Notes: generated by a model not told the origin, from the letters alone. Shown: positions 43,057 to 46,294, counted from the stretch's first letter. The stretch is 64,000 bases of DNA from an uncultured Pelagibacteraceae bacterium (GCA_902520335.1 CABYNS010000003.1:62001-126000); one strand, 5' to 3'. Numbers and translations: made by a program.

Positions 43057-43101
43057 TGGCGCGCCCTGGAGGATTCGAACCTCCGACCCTCGGTTTAGAA
43101 A
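43057..43101 (-). repeat. att-like partial tRNA-Arg copy (distal end of element)
   Basis: TGGCGCGCCCTGGAGGATTCGAACCTCCGACCCTCGGTTTAGAAA, exact match to the 3' CCA-to-anticodon-loop segment of the tRNA at 46218. Confidence 0.93.
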
Positions 43102-43172
43102 TTTGATGCGTGATCAAACTGCAAGAAATAGCAATAATTAATCATTCAAAAAATATCAACTTTTAGATTTCA

Positions 43173-43192
43173 TTTCGTCATCTGGTCGTCAA
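43173..43192 (+). repeat. Left subterminal repeat of element
   Basis: tttcgtcatctggtcgtcaa, 18/20 identical to 46142-46161. Confidence 0.75.
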
Positions 43193-43213
43193 GAGAATTT
43201 AGTTAATTTTTGA

Positions 43214-43612
43214 TTAAATCTTATTATCTTTTTGTACTGCATCTAAAAGCTGTTGGGACTCTTTTTCCAACTTATTTCTAATGTTAAATTTGATAACTTT
43301 ACATCTTGATCCGTCTTTTTTTTTAAGAGTCTTACGATTAATTGTATGAGAAATTAGAGTGCCTCCCCATAATAATTCTATCTTTGTAGGATATTCTTTA
43401 TAATCAAAGATAAACTCTCTTACTTTTAAACTCTCATTATGTATCCAAAAGCTCTTAACTTCTTTATTATTTATAAATTTAAAATATTGAACAGCTCCCA
43501 ACATATAATCAGTTTTTGATCCACACTGGAGTTGTGTGCCTACAAGACTTTTTGCAAAAACATTGCCACTCCACAATAAAACCAGAACTATAATTGCTAA
43601 AAGTTTTTTCAT
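43214..43612 (-). CDS. Uncharacterised secreted protein (element cargo)
   Basis: ORF; signal peptide MKKLLAIIVLVLLWSGNVFA. Confidence 0.7.
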   Translation of the reverse strand: MKKLLAIIVLVLLWSGNVFAKSLVGTQLQCGSKTDYMLGAVQYFKFINNKEVKSFWIHNESLKVREFIFDYKEYPTKIELLWGGTLISHTINRKTLKKKDGSRCKVIKFNIRNKLEKESQQLLDAVQKDNKI

Positions 43613-43614
43613 AT

Positions 43615-43974
43615 TTAAAATACTGGATATTTGTTACATTGAAAGCTTTTAGCTTCTATTACTTCCCATTTTATATCGCCTCTTTTAGTGGTGATTAAAT
43701 GCTTCTTTCCGTAATAACGATCTAGAAATATTGTCTCAATATATTTTTTATTATCTATATTAATTATTCTCTCTGCTTTTATGGAGTTTTCTTTTATTTC
43801 AACTATCTTATATAAAGCTTCTGCTTTTTCTAAAGTTTTATTGTCTAAATCAATAGTAATAAAATATCTGGGTTCACTATTTTCCGTATTTTTGCAGGTC
43901 AATAGAAGAGGTTCAGATTTAGCTATATTAAAATATAAACTTATAAAAACGATAATATAAAAAACTGTTTTCAT
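43615..43974 (-). CDS. Uncharacterised secreted protein (element cargo)
   Basis: ORF trimmed to MKTVFYIIVF start at 43974, removing overlap with neighbour; signal peptide. Confidence 0.65.
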   Translation of the reverse strand: MKTVFYIIVFISLYFNIAKSEPLLLTCKNTENSEPRYFITIDLDNKTLEKAEALYKIVEIKENSIKAERIINIDNKKYIETIFLDRYYGKKHLITTKRGDIKWEVIEAKSFQCNKYPVF

Positions 43975-43978
43975 AGTG

Positions 43979-44131
43979 TTAAAAACTTTTGCATTTATTA
44001 TATTCATTTTCAGCCTCTACACCAGTCAGTTTCAAATCTTCAACGTGGTTTCTACAAGATGCTGACTCGTACGCTTGACCTAAAAATCCTAGCACAACTA
44101 GAACAAAGATTATCACTAAAAATTTTTTCAT
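43979..44131 (-). CDS. 50-aa secreted small protein, absent from supplied ORF track
   Basis: Manual translation: MKKFLVIIFVLVVLGFLGQAYESASCRNHVEDLKLTGVEAENEYNKCKSF*. Confidence 0.6.
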   Translation of the reverse strand: MKKFLVIIFVLVVLGFLGQAYESASCRNHVEDLKLTGVEAENEYNKCKSF

Positions 44132-44599
44132 TTAATTAGCACCTTCTTCAACATTAACTTTATAATATTCATTCTGCAATTCTTCTTTAGATTTACTGAA
44201 ATATTCGTTCAAGTTTTTAGATGAAGGTATGTCTTTTATTTTATCAAATTTATTTGGATAGATATGCTGAAGATATGACAAACGATATATAACAATTAAA
44301 TGAAGTATTTGTTTATCATCTAATGAGTGTTCCATTATTAACCAGCCATCTTTCCATAGATCCGATCCGATATGTTCAGTGATTTCAGGTTTGCCTACAG
44401 GATTAATTCTAATAGATCCTTTACTTATATTTTCCTCAAACTCAGCTGGCAAAACTCTATTTTTTAATGATTGATAAAAACACATTCCTAAATTTGTTTT
44501 TTCTGTTCCAGGAACAATTTCATCTACTCCATTTACATTTTTAACATCATCACTAAGAATAGTATCTAAAAAATTGTCTATTGTTAAATTTATATCCAT
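44132..44599 (-). CDS. Uncharacterised protein (element cargo)
   Basis: 155-aa ORF directly downstream of the T5orf172-like gene. Confidence 0.7.
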   Translation of the reverse strand: MDINLTIDNFLDTILSDDVKNVNGVDEIVPGTEKTNLGMCFYQSLKNRVLPAEFEENISKGSIRINPVGKPEITEHIGSDLWKDGWLIMEHSLDDKQILHLIVIYRLSYLQHIYPNKFDKIKDIPSSKNLNEYFSKSKEELQNEYYKVNVEEGAN

Positions 44600-44601
44600 A
44601 T

Positions 44602-45990
44602 TTAACTAATCTTAATTTCTTTTTCTAATTCATTAAACTTAATCTTTTTTTCACCTTTGTTGCTATATTGGGAAACATCTTTTAAACATTTTGTTATGAT
44701 ACTTAAGTCTAACTTAAAAAACTCTCTTCCTTTTCTATATCTAAAATTTTTAAGAAGTTTATGAATTTGCTTTTCATAATATTCAGCATCTTTTATCTTT
44801 ATTTGAGATACAACAGTCCATGGGTCTGGTACATTTGTTCCACTTAATTCTTCAGCTCTTTCTTCGGGGAGCCCATATGTTGATCCAATTTTATATACCC
44901 CAGGATAACCAATGCTCTCTAGAACATATACATATCCAAGGTTAGTTTGTTTTTCTTTGCTTTTTAAACGCGTTCTCTCAATTAACGTGATTTTTCTTAA
45001 GACACGATTTAATGCTTCTTTGGCTAGAGGGAGAAATTTTTTATAAAAATCTCTATCTACTAACGTTCCTTCATTTACATAGATACCATTTCTAATTTTA
45101 TCACAGTATTTTGATAGTTTTGCTTCATCTATTAATTTTGAATAATTAATTTCATCAAATCTTAAAACAAGAGCAGCTTTTTTATGATCTTGGCTAGAAC
45201 ACCATGAAAATTTACTAAATGAATTATTCCAACTTGATTCATTTCCATGACTACCCCAATCGGGTACTTTGCCTTTTTTGATAAATTCATCGTATGTACT
45301 CTTGGGTTTAAAAAGATATCCTCCATTTGTTCCTTCTGGTTGTTTATTCATTATCTCATCGACTACTCCCTCAAAAGAGGTTGGTGGGTTTTTATCTATC
45401 ACTGTGAAATTATCATAAGCAAAATTCTTTTTAATTTTGCTATCTACCACTGAACTCCAAGGGTAGAATTTACCTTTAAATAAATTAAGCTCAAAAACCA
45501 AATAATATCTAGGGATTAAGCTTGAAATTTTATAAAAATAATAGTTCAAATCTTGATACTCTTTTGACTCCAATTCCTGGAATATTTCTTTTTCGGCTTT
45601 TATGAGTTCTTTGAGATTACCTGAACATGAAACACGTTGAATAGTTAAACAATCTGAAAAAAAGATTGCTTCTTCTAAATAGTGCGAAATTGTGATTCTA
45701 ATTAAATCTCTATTTTTTTTAATTAAAACCTCAAGATTTTTGCACAACTTACTTATCTTGTTTATTTTGTTGCTTATTTTTTTTAATTTTTCATCAAAAG
45801 AGGATAATGAATAATCTTTATCTAATTCTTTAATGTCATCTAAAAATAGTTGTTTTTGTTCCTCAAGTTCTTTGTTACTTAATTTAGATAATTGAGCCTG
45901 TGAGATTATTCTTCCGTAGTCTTTAAAAGCTGCCTGTTTTTCAATAGTTATTCTTGATTTTTGTTTAATAGGAAAACGGTAATAAGGCAT
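44602..45990 (-). CDS. T5orf172/GIY-YIG-like domain protein with long N-terminal region (element cargo)
   Basis: ORF; C-terminal 'GYVYVLESIGYPGVYKIGSTYGLPEERAEELSGTNVPDPWTVVSQIKIKDAEYYEKQIHKLLKNFRYRKGREFFKL'. Confidence 0.78.
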   Translation of the reverse strand: MPYYRFPIKQKSRITIEKQAAFKDYGRIISQAQLSKLSNKELEEQKQLFLDDIKELDKDYSLSSFDEKLKKISNKINKISKLCKNLEVLIKKNRDLIRITISHYLEEAIFFSDCLTIQRVSCSGNLKELIKAEKEIFQELESKEYQDLNYYFYKISSLIPRYYLVFELNLFKGKFYPWSSVVDSKIKKNFAYDNFTVIDKNPPTSFEGVVDEIMNKQPEGTNGGYLFKPKSTYDEFIKKGKVPDWGSHGNESSWNNSFSKFSWCSSQDHKKAALVLRFDEINYSKLIDEAKLSKYCDKIRNGIYVNEGTLVDRDFYKKFLPLAKEALNRVLRKITLIERTRLKSKEKQTNLGYVYVLESIGYPGVYKIGSTYGLPEERAEELSGTNVPDPWTVVSQIKIKDAEYYEKQIHKLLKNFRYRKGREFFKLDLSIITKCLKDVSQYSNKGEKKIKFNELEKEIKIS

Positions 45991-46068
45991 CGTTAATAAT
46001 CATAGCATTAGGCATATAATCCAACCAGATTAAAAATCGATGTAATTTATGCTAAACGTATATATAGC

Positions 46069-46112
46069 TGTCGTACTGTCGTACCTATATAGACACAACG
46101 ACAACTACGACA
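46069..46112. promoter_or_regulatory. Cluster of inverted TGTCGT/ACGACA motifs around CTATATAG
   Basis: TGTCGTAcTGTCGTAcCTATATAGacacaACGACAacTACGACA, between cargo operon start and att site. Confidence 0.5.
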
Positions 46113-46141
46113 TACATTTCTTAGTATATTTAACACTTTCG

Positions 46142-46161
46142 TTTCGTCATCAGATCGTCAA
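46142..46161 (+). repeat. Right subterminal repeat of element
   Basis: tttcgtcatcagatcgtcaa, 18/20 identical to 43173-43192, same orientation. Confidence 0.75.
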
Positions 46162-46217
46162 TGGCATATTTTAGAAGGTAGGAACGTTGCTTATGGTTAA
46201 ATAAGCATTGATTTTAA

Positions 46218-46294
46218 TGGCGCGCCCTGGAGGATTCGAACCTCCGACCCTCGGTTTAGAAAACCGATGCTCTATCCAGCTGAGCTAAGGGCGC
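46218..46294 (-). tRNA. tRNA-Arg (TCT), integration target
   Basis: minus strand GCGCCCTTAGCTCAGCTGGATAGAGCATCGGTTTTCTAAACCGAGGGTCGGAGGTTCGAATCCTCCAGGGCGCGCCA; full cloverleaf with CCA. Confidence 0.96.

Follow-up and report, generated by a model that had tools for sequence, protein, structure and literature searches.

An integrase-less mini-element at tRNA-Arg(TCT), probably mobilised in trans, with a tRNA-derived core and a putative paired CGTCA arm-type site on each side

We have identified a 3.2-kb mini-element that lacks an integrase and is inserted at the tRNA-Arg(TCT) gene of a bacterium which we take to be SAR11. A core derived from the tRNA gene and a pair of CGTCA boxes, resembling the arm-type site of a tyrosine integrase, occur on each side of the insert, and we consider it likely that the element is mobilised in trans, although movement was not observed. 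Integrase-less CIME and hitcher elements are already known; the novelty here lies in an arm module conserved while cargo is swapped, in the existence of several box dialects, and in a named putative helper at the same site. In SAR11, whose genomes are small and streamlined, the routes of gene uptake are poorly known.

The window analysed was a stretch of 64,000 nt (G000:C3:62001-126000), in which positions are counted from the first letter. ARAGORN confirmed a complete tRNA-Arg gene on the minus strand and a repeat finder confirmed an exact copy of its 3' part some 3 kb away (Table 1), both of which a first-pass annotation had described. The two core copies are identical at 45/45 positions, lie in the same orientation at a spacing of 3161 bp, and diverge thereafter. 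Only two copies of the tRNA tail occur in the 1.06-Mb genome, both at this locus (41-mer, up to 3 mismatches), so the repeat is not a product of chance. As had been annotated, the repeats enclose approximately 3.1 kb of non-core ORFs and leave aapJ (SBP_bac_3) and trkH outside. ORF listing and searches of PHROGs and Pfam revealed no integrase, capsid, replication, relaxase, structural or lysis gene inside the element, in agreement with the earlier impression that no integrase, capsid or replication ORF was visible. That annotation did not contain a second repeat pair, formed by the two CGTCA sites, which is the key feature of the element.

Table 1. Coordinates of the element, its end modules and its cargo in the window
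Feature	Position	Strand	Basis or comment
tRNA-Arg(TCT) target gene, intact	46218-46294	-	ARAGORN; tRNA-side att core is the last 45 nt, 46218-46262
Distal att core, matching the last 45 nt of the tRNA gene exactly, from CCA end to anticodon loop	43057-43101	-	Repeat finder; outer flank corresponds to the empty site of G212
Insert of 3116 bp, bounded by the core copies	43102-46217		Repeats and occupied/empty comparison
Junction segment TTTGATGCGTGATCAAACTGCAAGAAA	43102-43128		Shared without change by the integrase-bearing G479 element (72 nt when the core is included)
Putative distal arm-type site CGTCATCTGGTCGTCA, two CGTCA boxes, 11-bp period	43176-43191	+	Lies 74 nt inward of the core, as in G015 and AG-333-P14
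Putative tRNA-side arm-type site CGTCATCAGATCGTCA, two CGTCA boxes 11 bp apart	46145-46160	+	Lies 57 nt from the 3' end of the tRNA, as in G015, G335 and G479
462-aa protein, C-terminal T5orf172 (GIY-YIG nuclease-like) domain, aa 352-439	44602-45990	-	Homologue is the main cargo of the G011 tRNA-Glu element
155-aa protein, no family match	44132-44599	-	ORF listing, family searches
50-aa ORF, hydrophobic N-terminus, no significant match	43979-44131	-	ORF listing, family searches
Probable secreted protein, ~119 aa	43615-43974	-	Start placed by inference inside a listed 130-aa ORF
Probable secreted protein, 132 aa, no family match	43214-43612	-	ORF listing, family search

Site-specific integration at the tRNA 3' end, as originally proposed, is supported by the exact repeat and by a polymorphism between occupied and empty sites. 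The first-pass annotation had suggested comparing the aapJ-trkH interval across relatives, and 120 other genomes of the genus had trkH-tRNA-aapJ readable at both ends. The locus was empty in 115 of these, with 124-200 bp (median 166) from the tRNA end to aapJ. In one such relative, G212, whose TrkH is 96% identical to that of the window, the sequence just downstream of the tRNA corresponds almost base for base to the outer flank of the distal core, providing a clean empty site. The insertion is clean and polymorphic. Two alternatives that had been named as refuting it, an ancestral segment without polymorphism and a remnant of tandem tRNA duplication, are contradicted by this comparison and by the end modules shared with other elements. 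One of the 120 relatives, G015, has another element of this kind at the locus, 0.9 kb long and distinct from that of the window, with a second 45-mer. The members in AG-333-P14 and G335 are only partly visible because the contigs end, and the frequencies are rough because the sampled genomes are often incomplete.

Four of the 120 loci contain ordinary genes between tRNA-Arg and aapJ, without the tail repeat or arm boxes, which indicates that the site gains genes by another route as well. Insertions in G143, G009, G017 and G209 were considered as possible members and rejected for want of tail repeat and arms. A glycosyltransferase-like gene (three times) and a histidinol-dehydrogenase-like gene (once) were noted without repeats in the tRNA-Arg to aapJ interval of L477, L481, L484 and L507. 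The tRNA-Arg alleles designated A, B and C occur intermixed within the genus.

The tRNA-side box begins 58 nt after the tRNA 3' end, a spacing of 57 nt, in 4/4 tRNA-Arg elements (window, G015, G335 and G479), and the corresponding spacing is 48 nt (box start 49 nt after the tRNA) in all three tRNA-Ser elements. At the other end, the distance between the core's outer edge and the start of the distal box is 120 nt in each of the three integrase-less tRNA-Arg elements (window, G015 and AG-333-P14). In a sample of 399 genomes of the genus, exact matches to the 16-mer pattern were confined to the elements of the window and G015. Matches with one mismatch (n = 7) are no commoner than with a reversed-pattern control, so their number is uninformative; five of the seven lie in or beside elements anchored at a tRNA or tmRNA gene, namely tRNA-Arg in G335, tRNA-Ser(GGA) in G356, G313 and G376, and tmRNA in G399. 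Pairwise identity of the distal modules from core edge to box is 91% (window and AG-333-P14), 69% and 66%, and falls to ~30% just past the box. Local alignment scores of the modules exceeded those of all 200 shuffles, whereas scores of the adjacent cargo did not; the attachment module has been kept while the cargo was exchanged. Just inside the tRNA-side arm, at 46065-46115, GTCGTA/TACGACA words occur in both orientations within TATATAG repeats, and this cluster is possibly an origin, a promoter or a factor-binding site.

The interior consists of five minus-strand ORFs separated by gaps of a few bases. The T5orf172 domain of the largest product suggests, by its family assignment, a GIY-YIG nuclease, and the function of the cargo is not settled. 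Defence-system models matched the T5orf172 domain only, and for this reason we claim no defence role.

Integrase-less elements of the CGTCA type were also found at tRNA-Ser, tmRNA and tRNA-Met genes. The same plan, with different boxes at a period of 11 or 12, recurs at tRNA-Glu (G011), tRNA-Met (G144, two in tandem) and tRNA-Thr (G071), where the box words are GGGCACC, GGTACTCAC, TTGTATACC and TGTGTAT. A joint score of the four boxes exceeded all 200 shuffles in 7/8 elements tested, and that of the eighth, the second tRNA-Met element, was reached by 4/200. Since the main cargo of G011 is homologous to the 462-aa protein of the window, the same cargo gene is associated with two dialects. A sister family too has integrase-less elements with CGTCA boxes, at tRNA-Met, which extends the kind beyond a single genus. 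The tRNA-Thr element (L160, G071:C24, 4284-5978) contains an Mrr-type restriction endonuclease gene (Mrr_cat, Mrr_N).

Paired boxes with a period of 11-12 were also observed in integrase-bearing elements of the same genus, between the tRNA core and the start of the integrase gene. Their words are TGTCACA (G106, G308, G327 and G239), GATCACA (G211), GGGATGCA (G148) and GTACTCA (G010); weaker pairs occur in G204 and in G185, the latter seen by eye and not flagged by the automatic scan. G010 shares its box word, in opposite orientation, and its tRNA-Met target with the first integrase-less element of G144. Relatives of the integrases found in IMG/VR by integrase alignment have paired boxes by the tRNA core as well, most clearly in L234 and L236. 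An AlphaFold model of one SAR11 element integrase (mean pLDDT 86) has an N-terminus of three strands and a helix, the fold described for arm-binding domains (PMC8138268), and its best structural match is full-length lambda Int. Because the boxes stand beside the integrase gene in these elements, and because the modelled integrase has an N-terminus of the arm-binding type and resembles lambda Int, we read the boxes as putative arm-type sites. By position and analogy this is the most likely interpretation, and no binding data are available.

A second genome sample, at order level, yielded a counterpart at the very same gene. G479, a genome of the same genus that is 95% complete, has a 6.39-kb element at tRNA-Arg(TCT) between trkH and aapJ, and it is the sole integrase-bearing element found at this tRNA gene. 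CGTCATCAGGTCGTCA lies 57 nt from the tRNA, and a 332-aa integrase starts directly behind the box; the other end has a second box (CGTCATTCAGTCGTCA) and a distal copy of the tail. At the distal junction a run of 72 nt, made up of the core and the 27 nt that follow it, matches the window without a difference, whereas the distal arm is 131 nt from the core in G479 as against 74 nt in the integrase-less elements. The G479 integrase is likely to be the helper of the window element, an inference in which compatibility is judged from sequence alone. Other genes of the G479 element include one for a 603-aa primase/helicase-like protein, and no capsid gene was recognised; the helper therefore looks like a satellite or a replicating integrative element. 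The alleles of the two core copies did not fix the crossover point, as both copies are A in the window, and the G479 pattern (tRNA copy B, distal copy A) fits either end. The G479 core copies (L529, 2353-2397 and 8743-8787) differ at two T-arm positions.

The window's own genome, which is ~90% complete, yielded no protein related to the element integrases. The same contig encodes, outside the window, a Xer-like tyrosine recombinase of 304 aa (G000:C3:30320-30826, L084) that falls well below the XerC/XerD cut-offs and is not clearly a chromosomal Xer; similar proteins are common in the genus. With only this recombinase and no integrase of the element type, the element in this cell is probably at rest and may be stranded. 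A viral scan for the core junction gave no matches, and no virus carrying the CGTCA end module was found in the viral scans; CGTCA pairs that did match viral sequences were not beside an integrase and tRNA and were judged to be chance. Peptide-pattern searches of IMG/VR recovered no homologue of the 462-aa protein or of single integrases, and a phage collection contained only distant integrases and T5orf172 domains.

On the mechanism we propose, a cell would receive or already carry an element that makes an arm-binding tyrosine integrase of the G479 type. The integrase would bridge the arm boxes and the core on the excised circle and join the circle to the end of tRNA-Arg, and the tRNA gene would be left intact after integration. 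Excision would be the reverse reaction, probably with an excision factor. The cargo, a T5orf172 gene and small, partly secreted proteins, would ride along. Packaging with a helper or virus, vesicles and DNA uptake are all possible means of transfer between cells, a passage that is itself inferred, as are binding of the boxes by an integrase and action of the G479 integrase on the window element.

The first-pass annotation had left two readings side by side, a decayed prophage and a minimal element mobilised in trans; the shared modules and the G479 element favour the second, with movement still unobserved and neither a circular form nor an excision junction seen. A remnant immobilised when its integrase was lost by deletion (a fossil CIME) remains conceivable, given that the window's own genome lacks a helper and that integrase loss is the standard view of how CIMEs originate (PMC5704250). 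Independent decay would not, however, be expected to spare arms at both ends, nor to leave the same modules and spacings in four tRNA-Arg elements with unrelated cargo and similar elements at other tRNAs and in a sister family. The interiors of the window element and of G479, moreover, have no gene in common, and we regard such a fossil as unlikely. The boxes could, in the absence of binding data, be shared sites of another kind (for an excision factor, replication initiator or packaging protein), and the pair does occur at different tRNA genes with differing cores. Their presence at both ends, their fixed distance from the core, their position directly before the integrase gene and the change of box word between integrase lineages all speak against this, as does the predicted arm-binding-type N-terminus of the integrases, and we give this reading little credence.

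Elements that exploit Xer recombinases target dif and are not known to require arm sites. Mobilisation by a host Xer-type recombinase, rather than by the integrase of another element, could draw on the 304-aa protein of the same contig and its common relatives, but dif targeting without arms would then be expected, and the matching attachment module adjoins a phage-type integrase in G479; we find this very improbable. That the structure arose from tandem tRNA duplication, gene gain by homologous recombination or misassembly is scarcely tenable: four relatives did gain ordinary genes between tRNA-Arg and aapJ without repeats, whereas in the window the cores are exact, arms are present, the empty-site comparison is clean and the architecture recurs in independent genomes. 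Trans-mobilisation of an integrase-less element thus remains our preferred reading.

Like CIMEs, the window element has attL and attR flanks and no genes for integration or transfer, and the tandem accretion known for CIMEs is likewise seen in SAR11 relatives. The usual view of CIMEs is that they have decayed and move in cis together with an adjacent element (review of IMEs, PMC5704250), and 15 ssrA islands lacking an integration module have been described in Dehalococcoides (PMC3146451). The window copy, in contrast, is solitary, its end modules are conserved across swapped cargo, and its integrase-bearing match is in another genome, which together imply action in trans. Three features of an integrase-less integrated element (CIME-like or hitcher) are present, namely attL and attR, the lack of a recombinase or transfer gene, and a helper module whose sequence appears compatible, while mobilisation itself is inferred. 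As regards a strict CIME, one that arose from an ICE/IME by decay and moves through accretion in cis, we saw a solitary window copy, cargo not shared with G479 and tandems elsewhere (G313, G144 and G478). Tycheposons, described in Prochlorococcus as 4-200 kb with a tyrosine recombinase and also reported in Methylophilaceae (PMC10872708), resemble the element in their streamlined marine hosts, tRNA anchoring (their tRNA-integration criterion is satisfied) and carriage of cargo, but the window element is only 3.2 kb and has no tyrosine recombinase. Phage satellites (PICI, PICMI and VEIME) depend on another element, as ours would, yet PHROGs and Pfam searches revealed in it no hallmark packaging, capsid-remodelling or replication gene; it is the G479 helper, with integrase and primase/helicase and no recognised capsid gene, that invites the comparison with satellites. 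The evidence does not establish that the element belongs to the tycheposons or to the phage satellites. The same searches set the element apart from a prophage, by the lack of structural and lysis genes, and from an IME, by the lack of its own integrase or relaxase. MITEs and CALINs are similarly reduced to the DNA sites needed by a trans-acting recombinase, and CALINs also carry cargo, but they use other recombinases, and the window has tRNA att sites and arms in place of terminal inverted repeats or attC. Hitcher elements were the subject of a 2024 review that deals with MITEs, CALINs and phage satellites (PMC11389934); a term search of that review returned neither CIMEs nor integrase-less tRNA cassettes. 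No description of such elements in SAR11 was found in the open-access papers searched, subscription journals being outside the scope of the search.

More tentatively, and with slightly more doubt than belief, we suggest that SAR11 maintains a standing pool of integrase-less cassettes with a tRNA or tmRNA core and paired arms in several dialects, whose cargo is freely exchanged and whose movement depends on integrases supplied in trans by separate satellite-like elements. If true, this pool would be a distributed system anchored at tRNA genes, with a logic comparable to that of integron cassettes. Our findings offer a concrete and testable route of gene uptake, in which cassettes of 1-3 kb with intact putative integrase docking sites sit harmlessly behind tRNA genes and a helper integrase can be named (G479). 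The known cargo ranges from T5orf172 genes in two box dialects and the Mrr-type gene of the tRNA-Thr element to many small secreted proteins. Gene finders and island finders based on integrases would miss such elements because nothing inside them looks mobile; the arm boxes provide a search key.

Several further observations concern integrase-bearing elements at other targets. The G479 and G185 elements, which have different targets, have in common a protein of 141/145 aa (64% identical; L529, 2931-3356, and L201, 7226-7663) without a family match. At tRNA-Met in G010:C2 (L222, 7527-16000), the cargo, named by eye, appears to comprise a DNA cytosine methyltransferase, an HNH protein and a large protein of ATPase/helicase-like type, and is possibly a defence island. 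Integrases of ~440 aa lie beside tRNA-Leu(TAG) in G080, G088 and G213 (L199, L200 and L224), accompanied in G080 and G088 by a 555-aa protein that by eye is terminase-like, making these two probable prophages. At tRNA-Gly in G148 and G204 (L221 and L223), the tRNA 5' part remains on the integrase side and an intact tRNA-Gly lies ~5-8 kb away, an arrangement indicating that these elements displace the tRNA 5' part.
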